Below, piece by piece: positions 4,272 to 40,778 of a stretch of 64,000 nt of DNA. Both the position numbers and the translations under genes were made by a program. Source of the DNA: an uncultured Tenacibaculum sp. (GTDB lineage: Bacteria; Bacteroidota; Bacteroidia; Flavobacteriales; Flavobacteriaceae); assembly GCA_947492185.1 (NCBI GenBank), contig CANLMR010000001.1, forward strand, positions 806,001 to 870,000, in the 5' to 3' direction. The notes under the pieces were generated by a model. That model had not been told where the DNA came from and did no database searches. It saw only the letters and a list, made by a program, of their open reading frames with translations. The first letter of the stretch is position 1. Every line of letters begins with the position of its first letter.

Positions 4272-4541
4272 TTATTTTCTAATTCCTAATTCTTTAATGA
4301 TTGCACGATATCTGTTGATATCTTTTTTCTTAAGATAGTCTAACAAGCTTCTACGCTTACCTACCATCTTCACTAGCGAGCGCTCTGTGTTAAAATCCTT
4401 ACGGTTTTTCTTTAAGTGCTCAGTTAAGTGGTTAATTCTGTGTGTAAATAACGCAACTTGTCCTTCAGCAGAACCAGTATCTTGTGCGCCTTTACCGTGC
4501 TTAGCAAAAATCTCTTCTTTTACTTCTTTTGTTAAATACAT
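4272..4541 (-). CDS. rpsO: 30S ribosomal protein S15
   Basis: Primary 16S rRNA-binding protein of the small-subunit platform. At 89 residues it has the exact family length and the signatures TGSAEGQVALFTHRINHLTEHL and KKNRKDFNTERSL...KRRSLLDYLKK in shorter blocks typical of S15, ending with YRAIIKELGIRK. It is the first gene of the rpsO-pnp pair; a TACATTTG promoter box and a small hairpin are found upstream. Confidence 0.98.
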   Translation of the reverse strand: MYLTKEVKEEIFAKHGKGAQDTGSAEGQVALFTHRINHLTEHLKKNRKDFNTERSLVKMVGKRRSLLDYLKKKDINRYRAIIKELGIRK

Positions 4542-4571
4542 ACCAATATTGTTTAAATGATTTTAATGTAC

Positions 4572-4601
4572 CAATGATTTTTCATTGAAGTTGCAAATGT
4601 A
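4572..4601 (-). promoter_or_regulatory. rpsO promoter box and 5'-UTR hairpin
   Basis: On the minus strand TACATTTG (4601-4594) matches the Bacteroidota -7 consensus TAnnTTTG. Immediately downstream, at the expected RNA 5' end, CAATGA-AAAA-TCATTG (4587-4572) can form a hairpin. S15 is autoregulated through 5'-UTR structure in other bacteria, so this hairpin might be its site here (inference). Confidence 0.6.
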
Positions 4602-21227: not shown

Positions 21228-24200
21228 TTATTTTACAATTAGTTTTTTAGTAGTACGTTTATTTCCATTTTGTACTTGTAACAAATACAATCCAGCATTA
21301 ATTCCTTCAAGGTTTAATTCTTCAGAGAAAGTGTTAGCTGTATTTTTAAACTCTCTTTCTTCAACTAATCTTCCTCTAATATCGAATAATCTAACTCCAA
21401 CGCTTTCTGTATTAATAACTTCAAAGGTTATATTGAAATTACCATTTGATGGATTTGGATAAACATTAAAATTAGTAAAATCAAAATTATCAACAGAGGC
21501 AGTTGTATTAATTACATTTACCGAATAATCTTCTGTTTCACCCCATTCTGAAGCATGATCAGTATCACAAGCTCCATCTGTAAGGATAAAGTTGGTACCA
21601 TCAAAATATTGAGCAATCACTCTCATTCTGGTAGTTCCGTTAACAGCATCTGTAGGAACAGCAATATTGGCCGTTCTAGTACCAACAGCACCCGAAACAC
21701 TTCCTAAATCATATCTTTCAGTACTGACATCAAAATTAAAATCTTGATTCCAATCGATAAATACATAACAATGATCTTGGAAACCATCAGGATCAAAAGT
21801 TACACTTACTTGGTAGCTATCTCCAGCATTAACATCTGTAGAAATAGTAGCTGTATAATCTATATATCCATCTACGATATCATTCCCTGTTGTGTTATTA
21901 ATAGTATTAAACGTAACATTGGTGATATGATCGCCACCTCCAGCTTCGTCAGTAAATGTAGAAGCGCAATAAGAAGGGTTATTAGTTGTAAAGCTAAAAG
22001 CACTTGTGTAATTTCCTTCACCACAAGCATTCTTTCCACGAACTCTCCAGAAATATTGTGTTAAAGCACTTAGTGGGGGTGTAACTGTATACGCATTTGT
22101 AGCTGAATTAGCATTAAGGATTATATTGGTAAAAGCATTATCAGTTGCAATTTGAATGTCATATGATTCAGCTTCAGAAATACTTCCCCAAGATAAGTCA
22201 GGAACAATACTTACGTCAGTTGATCCATTTGTAGGAGCAGTAAGCGAGAAGTTAGAAAAACTACCATCAGATATTTCTAGTTCAGCATCAACTGATTGGT
22301 TGACTGAAGTTGAAGTTCCGTTTATAGTAATGTTATAGTTGTTTGCAGTTACACCATCTAGATTAGAAACTGTCATTTTAACAGTTCCATTACTAGTAAT
22401 AGTAGTAGGGTTAAAAGTAACAGTTGATCCAGAAGGCGTATTAGCAGCATTAAAAGAAATTGTTTCATTAAAACCATTAACAAACTCAACATTTAAATCA
22501 TATTCAGCAGTTGCTCCACCTGAATTACAAACAATTTGTTTCGAGGTAGTATTTGTTAGTACAAAAGTAGGAACAGTAGAAACAATTGAAAAATTAGTAC
22601 TATTCATATTATAGAAAATGTTGTCAACAGCTTCAACGATAATTCTTGCAGTGCTTGTTACATTGTTTGGAACTGTGATGTTATGCGTTCCATCATTTGG
22701 TGTACTATTTGCTAGAATGATAGGGAAAGTTGTTCCGCCATCAGTAGAAAGTAAAATTCGTACATTTTGACAATTGATTGGAGCTTGATCTGTAGTTGAT
22801 TTATTCCAAGTAATAGTTTGGGTAGTACCTACATTCCAAGTAACCGTAGTGTTCTGTGAAGTTACAGTGAAAGGATCAGCATCAGTAACTGTAATCTTAA
22901 CATCATCTCTATCAGCAGCTCCTCCGCCAGCATTGTTATCTCTTACTAATAATGCAAAATTCATTTCTCTTGCTACAGTTGGAATTACTTCCCAAGTTGT
23001 TGAAAGTGATCCATTTTTAACTGTCCTTATTGCCGGTAAATATCTATTTGGAGAGGTAGAAGGATCTAAAGATCTAAACAATGGGCCACCAGTATTTCCT
23101 GAAACCGGAGGCATAGTTGCAATCTCAGTATCCATTTGTTCCCAACAATATGTTAAGCTACCTGTTCCATCAGTATCAGTGGCATTTCCTCTTAATACCA
23201 AAGGTGTTCCTTTTGGTACACTTACATCTTCTCCGGCATTAGCAACTGGAGAAGAATTACTTGTTGAAGTAGTAGTGGCACAAGAAGTTGTTTGAATGTA
23301 ATTCCACATACTTGTGATGCTAATAGTATGAAAATAGTCATCACTATTGTTTTGAACGTCTGTAGGACAGATTCCTGCATAAGCCATAATTGTAGATCCG
23401 CTACCAGGTTCAACAGCATTATTATCAGATCTATTCCCTCCACAAGAATTGTTAAATGTATGTGGTGCTCCAAATTGATGTCCAATTTCATGAGCTACAA
23501 AATCAACATCATATGGGTCATTAATAGGAGTGCCAGTTCCGGTAACACCTCTTCCTTTTTGACCATTAGTGCAAACGACTCCTAAACCTGCTAAACCACC
23601 TGCTCCTGTACTAAAAGTATGTCCTATGTCGTAATTAGCAGCTCCTATAACAGCATCACATCTAGATTGACTTTCATTAATTAATGTTCCAGCAGTTGCA
23701 TTAGTAAAATTATCCGTTATTGCATTCAAAAAGATCAAAGGGTTCTCTCCACCAACTAACACGATATTCATTTGAACAGCCAAGTCAATTTCATAAATAC
23801 CATTTACTCTGGTCATAGTTGTGTTCATTGCAGATAATACTGCGGCTCTTTGTTGTACGTCAGTCCCAGTAGAAACTCCTTGTTGATTAATATGAAATTG
23901 GGCATATTCACCCGTACAAGCTAATGCTAAACGATATGTTCTTAACTGTCCATCATCAGCAGTTCTTTTAGCGTTTTTAGTTCTTATTTCTTGTTTTACC
24001 TTGTTTTCATCAAAAAGACAATGATTTTGCTGATTTTGATTTTCAATATCAGATCTGTTGTAAGAAATATATGTCTTATTATCCTTGGTGTATGGATCTA
24101 CATAAAATGTTGGATGATTTCCTGAAAAAATAGTTATGTGTACACCATCAGTACCAATGGAGATTTTTCCAGTTTCAGTTTTATCATTAATTCCTTTTAT

Positions 24201-24518
24201 AGAGTATGATTTAATGAAACCATATTTAGGATGTAAAGGTTCAGTGAAGTTTGAACTTTCAAGAATAGTATACTTTTCTATATTACCATTATAACTTGGT
24301 AAGTTAACAGTTCTATTACCTCCTTTAGATTGGGTAGTAAGTTCATTTTTAAAGCTTTCTAAATCTAAATTATATATAGAATACTTTTTAGGTTGTGTTT
24401 TTCGAAGTGTTTTTTCAGCACGAAAAGCAAGATTCTTGGAATCCATTTTTTTCCATGAACTTTGTGCATTAGTAAGGGCTGCGCAAAAAAACACTAATAC
24501 AAGTGTAATTCTTTTCAT
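21228..24518 (-). CDS. T9SS-exported reprolysin-like metalloprotease with FN3 and GEVED domains
   Basis: Secreted zinc protease of 1096 residues. Signal peptide (ends LTNAQ), propeptide (about 20-185), then the catalytic domain with HEIGHQFGAPH at 343-353 (HExxHxxGxxH) and a Met-turn GSTIMAYAGIC. Downstream are a PKD/Ig-like region, an FN3-like module (residues near 790-860), a GEVED-type domain with WGETEDYSV near 1000, and the type A T9SS sorting domain (VYPNPSNGNFNITF ... GLYLLQVQNGNKRTTKKLIVK in pieces). It is the largest of three tandem paralogues and the only one with the FN3 and GEVED modules. Substrate unknown. Confidence 0.93.
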   Translation of the reverse strand: MKRITLVLVFFCAALTNAQSSWKKMDSKNLAFRAEKTLRKTQPKKYSIYNLDLESFKNELTTQSKGGNRTVNLPSYNGNIEKYTILESSNFTEPLHPKYGFIKSYSIKGINDKTETGKISIGTDGVHITIFSGNHPTFYVDPYTKDNKTYISYNRSDIENQNQQNHCLFDENKVKQEIRTKNAKRTADDGQLRTYRLALACTGEYAQFHINQQGVSTGTDVQQRAAVLSAMNTTMTRVNGIYEIDLAVQMNIVLVGGENPLIFLNAITDNFTNATAGTLINESQSRCDAVIGAANYDIGHTFSTGAGGLAGLGVVCTNGQKGRGVTGTGTPINDPYDVDFVAHEIGHQFGAPHTFNNSCGGNRSDNNAVEPGSGSTIMAYAGICPTDVQNNSDDYFHTISITSMWNYIQTTSCATTTSTSNSSPVANAGEDVSVPKGTPLVLRGNATDTDGTGSLTYCWEQMDTEIATMPPVSGNTGGPLFRSLDPSTSPNRYLPAIRTVKNGSLSTTWEVIPTVAREMNFALLVRDNNAGGGAADRDDVKITVTDADPFTVTSQNTTVTWNVGTTQTITWNKSTTDQAPINCQNVRILLSTDGGTTFPIILANSTPNDGTHNITVPNNVTSTARIIVEAVDNIFYNMNSTNFSIVSTVPTFVLTNTTSKQIVCNSGGATAEYDLNVEFVNGFNETISFNAANTPSGSTVTFNPTTITSNGTVKMTVSNLDGVTANNYNITINGTSTSVNQSVDAELEISDGSFSNFSLTAPTNGSTDVSIVPDLSWGSISEAESYDIQIATDNAFTNIILNANSATNAYTVTPPLSALTQYFWRVRGKNACGEGNYTSAFSFTTNNPSYCASTFTDEAGGGDHITNVTFNTINNTTGNDIVDGYIDYTATISTDVNAGDSYQVSVTFDPDGFQDHCYVFIDWNQDFNFDVSTERYDLGSVSGAVGTRTANIAVPTDAVNGTTRMRVIAQYFDGTNFILTDGACDTDHASEWGETEDYSVNVINTTASVDNFDFTNFNVYPNPSNGNFNITFEVINTESVGVRLFDIRGRLVEEREFKNTANTFSEELNLEGINAGLYLLQVQNGNKRTTKKLIVK

Positions 24519-33210: not shown

Positions 33211-34293
33211 TTATGAATTGATAATTTTCTTCTGATGATTAATACTTTCTTGGTGAATAGCTTTAAATATTCTAAGTACAAATTCTTCGCTTAAATTATT
33301 TTCTTCACCTTCTAGAATCATTTTGCCTAGAATTTCGTTCCAACGTTTGGTTTGGAGAATAGCAACGTTCTTATTTTTCTTTAAAGAACCAATTTGATCA
33401 GAAATTTTCATACGTTTTCCTAACATCTCTATTAATTGATGATCAACTACATCAATTTGAGTTCTTAGTGTATTTAAAGCATTGCTATAATCAGCTTCTG
33501 TATCCGTTTCTTTTCTGATTTTTAAATCTACCATCATTTGGATTAACGTATCAGGTGTAATTTGTTGTTTAGCATCACTCCAAGCGTTATCTGGATCATA
33601 GTGAGTCTCTACCATTAAACCATCAAAGTTTAAATCTAGTGCTGTTTGACAGATATCAAAAATAATATCTCTACGCCCAGCAATATGAGATGGATCACAT
33701 ATTAATGGTAAATCAGGGAAACGATTTTGTAATTCAATAGGAATTTGCCAGTTAGGATTGTTTCTATATCTAGTTTTCTCATACGTAGAGAAACCTCTAT
33801 GAATAACCCCTAATTTTTTGATGTTTGCAGAGTATAAACGTTCAATAGCTCCTAACCATAAAGCTAAATCTGGATTTACAGGGTTCTTAACTAAAACAAT
33901 TTTATCCGTTCCGTTTAAAGCATCTGCAATTTCTTGTACGATAAATGGACTTACAGTTGTTCTTGCTCCAATCCATAAAACATCAATATCGTGTTCTAAA
34001 GCTAATTTTACGTGATCTTTATTCGCAACTTCTGTAGAGGTCAATAATCCAGTTTCTTTTTTAGCTTTTTGTAACCATTTTAAACCTAATGCACCAACAC
34101 CTTCGAAATTTCCAGGTCTTGTTCTAGGTTTCCAAATTCCGGCTCTTAATACTGTTGCATCAGTATCTTTCAATTCATGAGCAATTTTTAATACTTGCTC
34201 TTCTGTTTCTGCACTACAAGGTCCTGCAATTACTAATGGATGACTTAATTTGAAATCATCTAACCACGTTCTTAATTTTTTGGTATTTTCCAT
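33211..34293 (-). CDS. bifunctional DAHP synthase-chorismate mutase
   Basis: N-terminal 3-deoxy-D-arabino-heptulosonate 7-phosphate synthase of the type I-beta/KDOPS-like group (VIAGPCSAETEEQVL, LRAGIWKPRTRPGNFEG, CDPSHIAGRRD), about residues 1-260, fused to a C-terminal AroQ chorismate mutase (about 270-355; LRTQIDVVDHQLIEMLGKRM, KRWNEILGKMI). It thus catalyses the first step of the shikimate pathway and the step from chorismate to prephenate. The mutase part may allow feedback by prephenate, as known for such fusions. Last gene of the attenuator-controlled operon, 12 bp after tyrA. Confidence 0.96.
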   Translation of the reverse strand: MENTKKLRTWLDDFKLSHPLVIAGPCSAETEEQVLKIAHELKDTDATVLRAGIWKPRTRPGNFEGVGALGLKWLQKAKKETGLLTSTEVANKDHVKLALEHDIDVLWIGARTTVSPFIVQEIADALNGTDKIVLVKNPVNPDLALWLGAIERLYSANIKKLGVIHRGFSTYEKTRYRNNPNWQIPIELQNRFPDLPLICDPSHIAGRRDIIFDICQTALDLNFDGLMVETHYDPDNAWSDAKQQITPDTLIQMMVDLKIRKETDTEADYSNALNTLRTQIDVVDHQLIEMLGKRMKISDQIGSLKKNKNVAILQTKRWNEILGKMILEGEENNLSEEFVLRIFKAIHQESINHQKKIINS

Positions 34294-34305: not shown

Positions 34306-35169
34306 TTAAGGAAGCTTAACTTCTTGAATTCCGTTTAAAATTTGTTTAATATGATTGGTGTTTTTCATTTCAGAGTAGATTTCTGAAAAATTATTTTGTT
34401 CTAATAGCGTTTTAAAATTTTGTAAATTTTGAATGTATTCATTTAAGGTTTCTATTACATTATTTTTATTCTGTTCAAATATTGGTGTCCACATGGCTGG
34501 TGAACTTTTTGCCAAACGCACAGTAGAAGCAAATCCACTACCCGCCATATCGAAAATATCACGTTCATTTTTCTCTTTTTCAATAACAGTTTTACCTAAC
34601 ATAAAAGAGCTAATATGTGATAAATGAGATACATAAGCAATATGTTTGTCATGAGATTTAGGATCCATATATCGAATACGCATTCCTAATTTTGAGAAAA
34701 TCTCTAAAGCTTTTTCTTGAAGTTTGAAAGCGGTTTTTTCTACTTCACAAATTATATTTGTTTTTCCGCGATATAAATCTGTTAAAGCTGCTCTCGGACC
34801 AGAAAATTCTGTTCCAGCAATAGGGTGTGTTGCTAAGAAATTCCTTCTTTTTGGATGATCAGCTATTGAATCACAAACCAATTCCTTTGTTGATCCTACA
34901 TCTAAAACTAAACAATTGTCTGGAATATGATTTAATACCTCTGGAATAAAATGTAATGAAACATCTACAGGAATTGATACAATTACAATATCAGCGATAG
35001 CTAAATCTTCATTTGTTGCTTTTTTGTCAATGATCTCTAAAGACAAAGCCTCTTCTAAATGATCTTCATTTCTGTCTATTCCATAAATAACAACATCGTC
35101 AAATTCCTTTCGAATATCTAGCGCTAAACTTCCGCCAATTAATCCTACACCAACTATAAATACATTCAT
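34306..35169 (-). CDS. tyrA: prephenate dehydrogenase
   Basis: Oxidative decarboxylation of prephenate to 4-hydroxyphenylpyruvate for tyrosine. N-terminal Rossmann motif VGVGLIGGSLALDI, the catalytic/substrate block THPIAGTEFSGP and the SHLSHISSFML helix are all present; the 287-residue length indicates the dehydrogenase alone with no chorismate mutase or ACT domain. It follows the aminotransferase by 1 bp and precedes the DAHP synthase-mutase fusion. Confidence 0.95.
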   Translation of the reverse strand: MNVFIVGVGLIGGSLALDIRKEFDDVVIYGIDRNEDHLEEALSLEIIDKKATNEDLAIADIVIVSIPVDVSLHFIPEVLNHIPDNCLVLDVGSTKELVCDSIADHPKRRNFLATHPIAGTEFSGPRAALTDLYRGKTNIICEVEKTAFKLQEKALEIFSKLGMRIRYMDPKSHDKHIAYVSHLSHISSFMLGKTVIEKEKNERDIFDMAGSGFASTVRLAKSSPAMWTPIFEQNKNNVIETLNEYIQNLQNFKTLLEQNNFSEIYSEMKNTNHIKQILNGIQEVKLP

Positions 35170-35170
35170 A

Positions 35171-36325
35171 CTACACTAAATTATCTATCCTTTGAATTGC
35201 TGTTTTTATATCCTCTTCTTTTACGCATAAAGAAAAACGTATATATCCTTCACCTTGACTTCCAAAAATGCTTCCAGGTGCAACAAATAAATTGTACTTG
35301 TGAAGAAGGTTGTCAATAAAATCCTCTGATTTTTGGTTAGAGGGAATTTTTGTCCAAACAAACATTCCTGAACCATCTTTTTTACAATCAAGGCCTAATT
35401 TTCCTACAAGCTCATGAATTAATGCTCTTCTTGTTTCATAAATTGAGTTAGTGCTATTAAACCATTCTTTAGAAAGCTGTAAAGCTGCTATAGCTCCTTT
35501 TTGAATTCCGTAAAACATTCCAGAATCCATCTGAGTTTTTACCTTTAAGATTTCATTTAAGAACTCCTTTTTTCCGGATAACATTCCTACTCTCCAACCT
35601 GCCATGTTAAAAGATTTACTCAGAGAATTTAATTCTAAGGCTATCTCTTTTGCTCCTTCAACTTGTAAAATACTCGTAGGTTTTTCATTTAATATAAAAC
35701 TATACGGATTGTCATTTACAACAACAATGTTATGCTTTTTAGCAAACTCTATAATATTTTTGAACGTATTTTCAGAAGCATTTGTTCCGGTTGGCATATG
35801 TGGGTAATTGATCCACATTAGTTTTACGTTACTTAAATCCTCTTGCTCTAAAGCTTCAAAATTTGGTTGATAGTTGTGCTCTTCAACTAAATCATAATAT
35901 ATCGGATTTGCACCCACAAGTTTGGTCACAGAACTGTAAGTTGGATAACCTGGATTAGGAATTAGAACACTGTCTCCTTCATTTAAAATGGCTAATGAAA
36001 TATGCATAATTCCTTCCTTACTACCCATTAAAGGAAGTATTTCGCTGTTAGCATCCAGAGAAACATTATAATTCGTTTTGTAAAAAGAACTAACAGCTGC
36101 TCTAAACTCAGGAATTCCTTGATAGCTTTGGTATTTATGCGCGCCAGCTTCTGACATACTTTCTATAATTGCTTCAATTACTTCAGTAGGCGGAGCTAAA
36201 TCAGGGCTGCCAATTCCCATATTGATGATTGGCTTTCCTTCAGCAATTAATCCTCTGACTTCCCTTAACTTTTTTGAGAAGTAGTATTCTTCAACGGTTT
36301 GTAAACGGTTTGCAAATTCTATCAT
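35171..36325 (-). CDS. class I PLP-dependent aminotransferase (probably aromatic)
   Basis: Fold type I aminotransferase of 384 residues. Motifs: INMGIGSPDLAPP, the NYPHMPTGTNAS loop, VVNDNPYSFI, and the PLP Lys in SLSKSFNMAGWRVG. Sequence alone does not fix the substrate, but its place between pheA and tyrA with a 4-bp ATGA overlap to pheA makes transamination of phenylpyruvate and 4-hydroxyphenylpyruvate the likely role. Confidence 0.93.
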   Translation of the reverse strand: MIEFANRLQTVEEYYFSKKLREVRGLIAEGKPIINMGIGSPDLAPPTEVIEAIIESMSEAGAHKYQSYQGIPEFRAAVSSFYKTNYNVSLDANSEILPLMGSKEGIMHISLAILNEGDSVLIPNPGYPTYSSVTKLVGANPIYYDLVEEHNYQPNFEALEQEDLSNVKLMWINYPHMPTGTNASENTFKNIIEFAKKHNIVVVNDNPYSFILNEKPTSILQVEGAKEIALELNSLSKSFNMAGWRVGMLSGKKEFLNEILKVKTQMDSGMFYGIQKGAIAALQLSKEWFNSTNSIYETRRALIHELVGKLGLDCKKDGSGMFVWTKIPSNQKSEDFIDNLLHKYNLFVAPGSIFGSQGEGYIRFSLCVKEEDIKTAIQRIDNLV

Positions 36326-37146
36326 GATCTTCCGTTTTTATATTCTCCTAATATTTTAAAATCTGTAGCCATAATTTCTATAATAGCTTTAGCTTTAGTG
36401 TAATCTTCATATGCATCGAAGGTCACGTCTACGAAAAAGGCATATTTCCAAGGTGTCTCGATTTTTGGTAATGACTGAATTTTAGTAAGGTTTAACTTGC
36501 AATCGCTCATGACATTCAAGATTGCAGCTAAACTTCCTCTTTTGTGGTCTAACTCAAATTTTAATGATGCTTTGTTGATAGATTCTATTCCGTTTTCTGG
36601 TTTAGAAGTCTGAAGAATTACAAATCGAGTTGCATTATTTTTTATGGTTTGAATCTCATCTTCTAACACTTCAAGTTTAAAAATATCAGCAGCAATTTTG
36701 GGTGCAATAGCAGCAACGCCTAATAGTTTTTTCTCTGAAATGCGTTTTGCAATCTCTGCTGTATCAACATCTTCAACTAATTTTATGTGTTTGTGTTGCT
36801 TAAAGAATTCTTTACACTGCAATAATGCCATTGGATGCGAACAGACCTCTTTTATTTCCGAAATATCCTGATTTGGCAATGCCATTAAATGATGATGGAT
36901 TGGTAGGTAATGTTCTCCAGAAATGTGAAGATTATTGTTGTCAATTAAAGCGTAATTAGGAATGATAGATCCAGCAATTGTATTTTCAATGGCCATAATT
37001 GCTTGATCTGATTCGTTATTAACTAAACTATCTACAAGCACATCAAATGACAAACATTCTTTTAGTGAAATATCTTTATTGAAAAATTGAGTTGCAACAA
37101 TATGGTGGTTGCTTCCTTCTATTCCTTGTATGGCTATTTTCTTCAT
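36322..37146 (-). CDS. pheA: prephenate dehydratase
   Basis: Converts prephenate to phenylpyruvate for phenylalanine. The N-terminal PDT domain shows IQGIEGSNHHIVATQFF, AIENTIAGSIIPNY and the TRFVIL motif; the C-terminal ACT domain (about 195-270; KRGSLAAILNVMSDCKLNLTKIQSLP) binds Phe for feedback control. No chorismate mutase domain is attached. First gene of the operon pheA-aminotransferase-tyrA-DAHPS/CM and directly behind a leader with terminator hairpin whose T tract ends about 9 bp before this start codon. Confidence 0.96.
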   Translation of the reverse strand: MKKIAIQGIEGSNHHIVATQFFNKDISLKECLSFDVLVDSLVNNESDQAIMAIENTIAGSIIPNYALIDNNNLHISGEHYLPIHHHLMALPNQDISEIKEVCSHPMALLQCKEFFKQHKHIKLVEDVDTAEIAKRISEKKLLGVAAIAPKIAADIFKLEVLEDEIQTIKNNATRFVILQTSKPENGIESINKASLKFELDHKRGSLAAILNVMSDCKLNLTKIQSLPKIETPWKYAFFVDVTFDAYEDYTKAKAIIEIMATDFKILGEYKNGRS

Positions 37147-37154
37147 TTTAGATC

Positions 37155-37185
37155 AAAAAAAAAGCCTCGATGTTATCGAGACTTT
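37155..37185 (-). terminator. attenuator terminator before pheA
   Basis: On the minus strand AAGTCTCGAT (37184-37175), AAC, ATCGAGGCTT (37171-37162) followed by a T run to 37155. It is a sense-strand intrinsic terminator lying between the leader peptide and pheA, so it can only serve to stop leader transcripts before the operon. Its 5' arm is also complementary to an upstream segment (see the antiterminator). Confidence 0.88.
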
Positions 37186-37231
37186 ATATTTATATTATTT
37201 TTAGTTACCTAAACACATAACACAAAGTCTC
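37178..37231 (-). promoter_or_regulatory. antiterminator hairpin of the aromatic operon attenuator
   Basis: GAGACTTTGTGTT (37231-37219, minus strand, inside the leader peptide codons 20-24) can pair with AATATAAAGTCTC (37190-37178) over 13 positions including two G-U pairs. The second arm is the 5' arm of the terminator, so the two structures exclude each other. A ribosome stalled in the Phe/Tyr run would leave the first arm free; a ribosome reaching the stop codon would cover it. Confidence 0.8.
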
Positions 37232-37289
37232 TCCTCTTACTATAAAAGTAAAAGTAAAAATAGAAACCTTGCCATACATTTTGTAACAT
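37209..37289 (-). CDS. Phe/Tyr leader peptide (26 aa) of the aromatic operon attenuator
   Basis: A 26-codon frame starts at the ATG 37289-37287 and ends at TAG 37211-37209. Residues 9-16 are FYFYFYFY, four Phe and four Tyr codons alternating; Trp6 and Phe22 add further aromatics. It lies in the leader of the operon that makes both Phe and Tyr. The spacing (about 13 nt from codon 16 to the antiterminator arm) fits ribosome-stalling control. A second ATG in another frame (37279) would give a peptide with fewer Phe and is considered less likely. Confidence 0.85.
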   Translation of the reverse strand: MLQNVWQGFYFYFYFYSKRRDFVLCV

Positions 37290-37460: not shown

Positions 37461-37724
37461 ATGATCAAAAATTTTTTAAAAATCAACGGAATTCAATTAC
37501 TAGAAAAGAAGAATCAAAAAAAAATAATTGGCGGTTTTACTAGAAAAAAGGGATGTTCTGCTCAATATGGAGATTGTATTCAAGATGCAGACAATACATT
37601 GAATAATAGTTTGAATGATTGTGTTTTAGGATCTTCTTCGTGTATTAGCAGTGCGGCAGTTACTTATGGGAATTCCATGTCAGGTTGTACTAGTTCATAC
37701 AACAACTGTCTACATAATGAATGA
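37461..37724 (+). CDS. GG-leader peptide with a 22-residue periodic Cx6C core, 87 aa
   Basis: The leader (MIKNFLKINGIQLLEKKNQK, then KIIGG) ends with Gly24-Gly25 as in bacteriocin-like and RiPP precursors of Bacteroidota. The core has six cysteines at 32, 39, 54, 61, 76 and 83: three Cx6C pairs repeated every 22 residues exactly. The core is Ser/Asn/Gly-rich with few charges. No maturase, transporter or immunity gene is adjacent. A secreted, disulfide-bonded or otherwise modified peptide is likely; activity unknown. Confidence 0.8.
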   Translation: MIKNFLKINGIQLLEKKNQKKIIGGFTRKKGCSAQYGDCIQDADNTLNNSLNDCVLGSSSCISSAAVTYGNSMSGCTSSYNNCLHNE

Positions 37725-39400: not shown

Positions 39401-39408
39401 GCTGGCAA

Positions 39409-39493
39409 CTTAAGAGGAAAGATTTGGTAGTGATTGCAACCTCATAAAAAAATGCTAAAGCAGTAATGTTTGGCTTGTTTTGCGACCAAATCT
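39409..39493 (+). promoter_or_regulatory. SAM-II-type riboswitch (long-loop form) upstream of metK
   Basis: The leader shows the SAM-II core: P1 formed by GAGG (39413-39416) and CCTC (39439-39442), a loop with GATTT and ATTGCAA just before the 3' P1 strand, an A-rich connector, and the invariant GCTAAA (39453-39458), whose GC-AA can pair with TTGC in the loop. AGATTTGGT (39419-39427) is fully complementary to ACCAAATCT (39484-39492), giving a pseudoknot or alternative stem across a long spacer, as in the long-loop SAM-II variants of Bacteroidota. metK makes SAM, the ligand, so feedback repression is expected. Confidence 0.75.
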
Positions 39494-39524: not shown

Positions 39525-40778
39525 ATGTCATACTTTTTTACATCAGAGAGTGTATCTGAAGGGCATCCAGATAAAGTAGCGGATCAAATAAGTGACGCTT
39601 TGATAGATAATTTTTTAGCTTTTGATCCAAATTCAAAAGTAGCTTGTGAAACATTAGTAACCACTGGTCAGGTTGTATTAGCTGGAGAGGTAAAGTCGAA
39701 TATTTATTTAGATGTTCAAAAAATAGCAAGAAATGTAATTAACAAAATAGGATATACTAAGAGTGAGTATATGTTTGATGGTAATTCTTGTGGTGTGTTT
39801 TCTGCTATTCATGAGCAATCAGATGATATTAATAGAGGAGTAGATAGAATGAAGAAAGAGGAGCAAGGTGCTGGAGATCAGGGAATGATGTTTGGTTATG
39901 CTACTAATGAAACAGAAAACTATATGCCTTTGGCTTTAGATTTATCTCATTTAATTTTAAAGGAGTTAGCAGATTTACGTAGAGAAGGAAATGAAATTAA
40001 ATACTTACGTCCAGATGCAAAAAGTCAGGTTACAATTGAGTATTCTGATGATAATATTCCTCAAAGAGTAGAGGCAATAGTAGTTTCAACTCAGCATGAT
40101 GATTTTGGAGGAGATAACGAAATGTTAACCAAAATTAGAAAGGATATTAAAGAAATTCTAATGCCTAGAGTAATTAGTAAGTTACCAACTCAAATTCAAG
40201 CTTTATTCAATGACGATATCAAATATCATATTAATCCAACAGGAAAATTTGTGATTGGAGGGCCTCATGGAGATACTGGATTAACGGGTCGTAAGATTAT
40301 TGTAGATACTTATGGAGGTAAAGGAGCACATGGAGGTGGAGCTTTTTCAGGTAAAGATCCAAGTAAAGTAGACAGAAGTGCTGCTTATGCAACACGTCAT
40401 ATAGCTAAAAATTTAGTCGCAGCAGGAGTTGCTGACGAAGTTTTAGTTCAAGTTTCTTATGCAATTGGAGTAGTTGAGCCAATGGGAATCTTTGTTGATA
40501 CTTATGGAACAGCGAAAGTAGATTTAACTGATGGAGAAATAGCAGCAAAGGTTTCTGAAATTTTTGATATGCGACCACATGCTATAGAAGATAGGTTAAA
40601 ATTAAGAACTCCTATGTATAGTGAAACTGCTGCATATGGGCATATGGGGAGAAAAAATGAAGTTATTTCTAAGACTTTCGAACAACCAAATGGTGAAACT
40701 AAACAAGTTGAAGTTGAATTGTTTACTTGGGAAAAGTTAGATTATGTAGATAAAGTTAAATCAGCTTTTGGTTTATAG
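39525..40778 (+). CDS. metK: S-adenosylmethionine synthetase
   Basis: Makes SAM from methionine and ATP. Family blocks: [54 protein letters not shown] and [16 protein letters not shown], in usual order over 417 residues. No membrane segment. Monocistronic: own promoter box and riboswitch-like leader, and a terminator 35-70 bp after the stop. Confidence 0.98.

Follow-up and report, generated by a model that had tools for sequence, protein, structure and literature searches.

Our analysis indicates that positions 37155 to 37289, on the minus strand of the window (by which we mean the whole stretch of 64,000 nucleotides analyzed), very probably hold a leader-peptide transcription attenuator that would sense Phe or Tyr before the pheA operon. 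A short frame, its Phe and Tyr codons and two mutually exclusive RNA helices can be read from the letters themselves, together with their conservation and co-variation among relatives. The mechanism is well supported by this comparison, and the response to starvation is what it predicts.

Leader, switch and operon in the window

The leader frame runs from 37289 to 37209 on the minus strand and has 26 codons followed by TAG. Its translation from the window, MLQNVWQGFYFYFYFYSKRRDFVLCV, carries the alternation FYFYFYFY at codons 9-16 (37242-37265; TTC TAT TTT TAC TTT TAC TTT TAT, that is, Phe-Tyr four times), as the original prediction had it. After the frame comes an intrinsic terminator on the same strand, a hairpin of 11 pairs with a 3-nt loop (37161-37185, segments 3 and 4) followed by a run of six T (37155-37160; nine T if those closing the stem are included). 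It had been placed about 9 bp before the pheA ATG (37146); the gap after the T run is 8 nt. The 5' arm of the antiterminator, segment 2 (37212-37232, minus strand), pairs with segment 3 (37195-37177, same strand), which contains most of the 5' arm of the terminator. The proposed mutual exclusion of the two hairpins is borne out by this overlap and by the strength of the antiterminator duplex (-17.5 kcal/mol), which none of 100 shuffles equaled. The antiterminator arm was also predicted correctly, and its distance from the last Tyr codon, given as about 13 nt, has to be amended: the arm starts at 37232, 12 nt after the first base of that codon.

Besides, segment 1 (37261-37280, minus strand), which precedes the F/Y run and extends into its beginning, is a predicted protector arm that pairs with segment 2 at -15.2 kcal/mol (0/200 shuffles), a helix absent from the original prediction. 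It is clear in the window and weak elsewhere, the protector duplex reaching p ≤ 0.05 in 85 of the 228 leaders described below; the MFE folds paired arm 2 upstream in 196 of these 228 loci, a count without shuffle control. Taken whole, the window leader folds at -37.8 kcal/mol (z = -5.1, 0/200 shuffles).

Four genes follow on the minus strand that overlap or stand 1-12 nt apart. They are pheA, prephenate dehydratase (36322-37146; Pfam PF00800); a class I/II aminotransferase (35171-36325; PF00155) with a 4-nt overlap with pheA; tyrA, prephenate dehydrogenase (34306-35169; PF02153/PF20463 and NCBIfam NF006307 above its cut-off); and a DAHP synthase fused to chorismate mutase (33211-34293; PF00793 and PF01817). 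Judged by these domain matches, the operon is the predicted branch to both Phe and Tyr, in agreement with the earlier claim that it makes both amino acids. The aminotransferase was found directly 3' of pheA in all the 138 loci that were read with 300 nt or more of sequence beyond pheA.

Conservation across relatives

We compared 252 pheA loci of the class of the window, which we take to be Bacteroidia after GTDB. The families carry the labels of the search tool (f1, f2, etc.); 203 loci were counted to f1 and 49 to 26 other families. Family f1 corresponds to Flavobacteriaceae, since Tenacibaculum skagerrakense, a member of the Flavobacteriaceae, belongs there; this was also the nearest named relative among the matches listed (pheA 93% identical). 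The set was built from five parts: 30 loci from 43 matches; 28 from the best 30 family matches plus 60 more of that list; 20 of 66 places, with five from f1; the best 80 among 586 named loci, placed in f1 by similarity; and 34 of 36 class-level places outside f1 and f5. A pheA match was found in 268 of 299 family genomes, and the family loci were taken from the higher-scoring ones. The records include Tenacibaculum, Kordia, Arenibacter, Psychroserpens and many Flavobacterium species, as well as uncultured or metagenome-derived Polaribacter, Maribacter and Winogradskyella.

Up to 400 nt 5' of each pheA, oriented, were examined. A leader was called when a frame starting with ATG or GTG, 10-45 codons long and containing a stretch in which four or more of eight residues were F/Y, was followed within 75 nt by a terminator, a rule that would also pass frames with F only or Y only. 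The rule was fixed after inspection of the first 58 loci, and the controls were run under the same rule. With it, the F/Y-rich frame and the sense terminator expected in related genomes were found to be kept before 228 of the 252 pheA genes; dinucleotide shuffles gave 3 calls in 1008, and reverse strands 5 in 252. These loci are not independent, there being 206 distinct peptides and 222 distinct upstream stretches among the 228, and some named loci duplicate other genomes in the set. By family, the leader was called in 200 of 203 f1 loci and in 28 of 49 outside f1, distributed over 17 of the 26 other families; the best 80 of the 586 named loci gave 78 calls. Among 118 family loci taken alone, 116 had a terminator within 400 nt of pheA (3/354 in shuffles). 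Four extra loci of the class, outside the 252, were all called (L281-L284). Beyond the class, 16 loci of the phylum gave three formal calls, two of them convincing (L267 and L268); the third, L270 (534 nt from the end of its stretch), resembles chance.

Applied to the 400 nt 5' of 55 genes of the window, the rule recovered the pheA locus and one weak case, MLDYIYYKYKTKTSELLKN, before the ORF at 21228-24518. Over the whole genome of the same organism the F/Y-run pattern matched ten times; two overlapping matches are the pheA leader, and none of the other eight had a leader-terminator call. The pattern was discarded as a test of conservation: it matched in 247 of the 299 family genomes and the reversed control was also common, the search being uninformative because protein genes match too.

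No call was obtained, within 400 nt upstream and under this rule, in 24 of the 252 loci. They belong to f27 (five), f5 (four), f1 (three), f16, f30 and f46 (two each) and to f12, f67, f38, f62, f76 and f39 (one each). In two of the f1 loci, L054 and L152, the element is present further upstream, and in the third, L164, the F/Y-run pattern had no match within 1500 nt. Visual inspection showed F/Y frames with imperfect hairpins in both f46 loci and in the f62 locus. The two f16 loci without a call, L129 and L130, come from 0.6-Mb genomes, and the f5 ones are L135-L138; in f16, a family of reduced genomes, and in f5, with a pheA about 31-35% identical, the leader has apparently been lost.

Two observations on the architecture of single loci can be added. 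In L054 the element lies behind repeated insertions, positions 900-1497 being repeat units with short GC hairpins (CCCGCC...GGCGGG type) before pheA, and L055 has a stretch related to these repeats. In L244 (f62) and L246 (f75) two successive F/Y-rich frames were seen by eye, each with a hairpin and a T run, which may be tandem attenuators.

Amino acids read by the leader

Neither Phe nor Tyr has fewer than two codons in any of the 228 called leaders. With the last F/Y codon of each leader aligned as position 0 (necessarily F or Y), positions -3, -2 and -1 were F or Y in 98, 99 and 98% of the leaders. Phe and Tyr swap at fixed positions, -3 for instance being 65% Y and 33% F, as expected if a shortage of either amino acid must be felt. 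The last F lies at most three codons and the last Y at most five codons from the end of the run, both falling within the last five codons in 224 of 228 leaders. Since Phe and Tyr codons interleave near the end of the run, either shortage would act alike, as an OR input.

Tryptophan deserves consideration as a third input. A Trp codon appears in 147 of the 228 leaders, clustered at -10, -9 and -5 from the last F/Y codon, which is what a leader reading all three aromatic amino acids might look like. However, 81 leaders lack Trp, same-genus relatives among them (NFTRFYFY type), the same genome has a WWW leader of its own before a trpE-like gene, and the Trp codon may be retained for the pairing of segment 1. 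We consider such a triple reading unlikely, and Trp sensing is rated minor because several same-genus relatives have no Trp codon.

The opposite simplification, that the leader senses Phe alone and the Tyr codons are neutral filler of a U-rich stretch, can point to the higher frequency of Phe (24% of leader residues vs. 15.6% for Tyr) and to the fact that 195 of the 228 runs end with it. Against this stand the Tyr codons found in every leader (at least two in 228/228, with no F-only leader among them), their location at positions -5 to 0, interchangeable with Phe, and the presence of tyrA in the operon. Sensing of Phe alone is thus quite improbable, and joint sensing of Phe and Tyr is the reading that we retain.

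Placement and co-variation of the arms

Tested against shuffles of arm 2, the antiterminator duplex reached p ≤ 0.05 in 225 of the 228 loci, and in 227 at least five bases of arm 3 pair both ways. Counted from the first base of the last F/Y codon, the antiterminator begins 9-16 nt further on in 224 loci, with 12 or 13 nt as the most frequent distances. We modeled the ribosome as a footprint from -18 to +11 around the A site and scored the first 10 nt of arm 2. With the ribosome stalled at the last F, 20% or less of arm 2 was covered in 215 of 228 leaders, and in 224 with a stall at the last Y; with the ribosome at the stop codon, at least half of the arm was covered in 212. When the front edge was set at +15 instead of +12, arm 2 was free in 116 (last F) and 201 (last Y) of the 228. 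Among the 228 called leaders (L010, L012 and L015, for example), the stop codon precedes arm 2 or coincides with its start in 43 and lies inside or after it in 185, which would give two layouts by which a finished ribosome covers the arm.

The sequence of the switch itself varies between families (GAGAC/GTCTC, GGGAC/GTCCC, GGATT/AATCC, GCGGTC/GACCGC), and its co-variation could be followed in two ways. The antiterminator was judged by swap tests on 23 representatives, 17 of them one per other called family and six from f1, including L005 (GTCTC type, as L001). Arms 2 and 3 paired at -16.4 kcal/mol with their own partner vs. -9.6 when swapped (0/5000 permutations), and arms 3 and 4 at -15.9 vs. 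-8.4 kcal/mol. Taken one by one, the representatives found an equally good or better partner in a fraction of 0 to 0.41 of the foreign arms 3 (mean 0.05). At 221 of 228 loci the 7-nt core of the terminator forms 6-7 pairs within the arm-2 window of the same locus, and foreign cores do so in 35% of 4560 trials; therefore the short core alone discriminates weakly.

The other way was a MAFFT alignment of 39 family leaders, on which only the terminator helix was scored because many arms 2 of the GGGAC type were one column off. In this helix 97.7% of the cells were paired, 17 cells had changed on both sides and the covariation score was 0.262 vs. 0.193 in shuffled alignments, each of these values being reached by 0 of 500 shuffles. 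Two further measures were less selective: the number of pairs with change on both sides, three, was reached by 36 of 500 shuffles, and that of further pair types by 359. The compensatory changes in the stems for which the original prediction had asked are therefore found, in the swapped arms as in the both-side changes of the terminator.

Proposed mechanism

From this arrangement the following sequence of events is proposed. The leader would be translated and, when charged Phe-tRNA or Tyr-tRNA is low, the ribosome would stall on the F/Y codons. With the last F/Y codon in the A site and a front edge about 12 nt further on, it would halt just before arm 2, leaving this free to form the antiterminator, so that RNA polymerase would read on into the Phe/Tyr operon. 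A ribosome that reaches the stop codon would cover arm 2 and the terminator would form. In the absence of translation, the protector helix between segments 1 and 2 would form, followed by termination.

Stepwise folding of the window RNA gave the antiterminator with a stalled ribosome until arm 4 was made, and the terminator with the ribosome at the stop codon. In the absence of a ribosome, the full-length RNA folded as protector plus terminator; before arm 4 was made, it folded as antiterminator and not as protector. At equilibrium the terminator of the finished RNA was preferred in every state, that with the stalled ribosome included, and therefore the model needs co-transcriptional folding, like the classical attenuators.

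Alternatively, the hairpin might just terminate transcription in the ordinary way or be a conserved small RNA, with the short frame being accidental or serving only translational coupling to pheA. There is indeed a second terminator-like hairpin near the pheA leader on the minus strand, directly 3' of a tRNA-Asp gene. However, in 228 of 252 loci the terminator stands between leader and pheA, on the pheA strand, and the overlapping alternative helix is significant in nearly all of them (p ≤ 0.05 in 225/228). The in-frame F/Y content is also far above that of shuffles: an earlier count found five or more F/Y in eight at 116 of the 118 family loci, vs. 150 of 1180 shuffles (13%). An accidental frame in U-rich sequence was ruled out by the shuffles, the reverse strands and the other genes of the window, and this explanation as a whole appears very improbable. 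Although the nascent chain is strongly aromatic, an arrest peptide of the type of TnaC, which would bind the free aromatic amino acid and stop the ribosome, was rejected as extremely improbable, given that beyond F/Y and, in many leaders, a single W the peptide shows no conservation (206 different sequences among 228, lengths 16-29) and its C terminus differs between clades.

Attenuation by Phe or Tyr can also be given a broader evolutionary form. The leader would be a class-wide, probably ancestral OR gate of the Bacteroidia, in which the arms turned over and the code, the stall distance of 12-13 nt and the exclusive helices stayed, with Trp read as well where a Trp codon precedes the run. 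Taken with all its parts, this picture is a speculative one and seems to us rather doubtful.

Regarding the start of transcription, TAnnTTTG, the -7 box of Bacteroidetes, was present in the 90 nt upstream of the leader in 57 of 226 loci vs. 16.7 expected from shuffles. In the window, the same scan of 90 nt found just the off-spaced TAAGATTTG at 37326-37318, and we claim no promoter there.

Relation to known leaders

There are similar systems in other bacteria. The enterobacterial pheA leader, pheL, also combines a short frame with an antiterminator/terminator switch before pheA. Its regulatory codons are for Phe alone; unlike it, the flavobacterial leader has mixed Phe/Tyr codons and precedes an operon of pheA, aminotransferase, tyrA and DAHP synthase. 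More than one regulatory amino acid is found in the thr (Thr/Ile) and ilv (Ile/Val/Leu) leaders, which share the principle of two amino acids with the Phe/Tyr leader and differ in the residues.

No Rfam family reached its threshold with the pheA leader of the window, nor was there a match at gathering in 20 further loci. The best weak match was RF01859, Phe_leader, over the full length of the model (28.9 bits vs. a curated 55). A T-box or known riboswitch was discarded, there being no Rfam match at gathering in the pheA leader, no T-box at gathering anywhere in the window and none in the list at E ≤ 10. RF01692, Bacteroid-trp, did not match the pheA leader either; it describes a Trp-reading peptide leader that precedes an aromatic amino-acid operon, likewise in this phylum, and it is listed in the available text of PMC2864571.

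Two more leaders that share the design of the pheA leader were found in the same genome. On contig 2 (L263) a His leader, MTFIQLHHHHHHICTQANR, stands before hisG and is followed, by eye, by a hairpin and a T run; it had no Rfam match at gathering. The other (L265, 751-869), MKTIQLNNWWWKSLNLR, is a Trp leader and precedes a trpE-like gene of the chorismate-binding type, again with a hairpin and T run by eye. It matches RF01692 with 51.8 bits (cut-off 49), described in Rfam as a Bacteroidete tryptophan peptide leader. Together with the Phe/Tyr leader, they suggest that classical attenuation is a standing control of amino acids in the phylum; the literature searched contained no experimental study of attenuation in it.

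There is prior evidence of attenuation at this operon. In Bacteroides thetaiotaomicron, a putative attenuator was listed in 2005, from Merino's database, for pheA > hisHb > aroA-aroQ > tyrA (PMC1173090), the same type of operon in the same phylum; a terminator and an antiterminator were predicted, and the available text gives no peptide, codons or conservation. For Flavobacterium psychrophilum, a structured 5' transcribed element before pheA was reported in 2021, present in other genera of Flavobacteriaceae, and leader-peptide attenuation was suggested for amino-acid operons (PMC9723704); its position before pheA is as here, and the main-text section contains neither codons nor a statement on Phe/Tyr. 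Leader-like small frames of B. thetaiotaomicron are mentioned in the accessible part of PMC7366714. The words Bacteroidetes, Flavobacter and pheA do not occur in the main text of PMC2965389, and the available text of PMC4833913 has nothing on a pheA leader. In the freely readable passages and sections covered by our searches, we found no statement of a joint Phe/Tyr leader code or of its wide conservation. The earlier opinion that a joint FY leader had not been described in Bacteroidota can stand, to that extent, for the joint code and has to be withdrawn for attenuation itself, in view of the available texts of PMC1173090 and PMC9723704. The mechanism is of a known type; the interest of this leader is in its joint Phe/Tyr code and in how deep the conservation goes. 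A joint leader across much of a class offers a tangible, readily testable example of two-amino-acid sensing, and its co-varying three-arm switches are a natural series for models of RNA folding.

Other features of the window

A divergent, Cys-containing frame of 87 residues (37461-37724, plus strand) has a Gly-Gly motif that recalls precursors of secreted peptides; an NCBIfam search with it gave no match. Further on, a SAM-II riboswitch (Rfam RF01726, 64.7 bits) was detected at 39408-39468 on the plus strand, 56 nt 5' of the ORF at 39525-40778, which we take to resemble S-adenosylmethionine synthetase. At 4539-4601, on the minus strand, there is a ribosomal protein leader, S15-Flavobacteria (RF03161).
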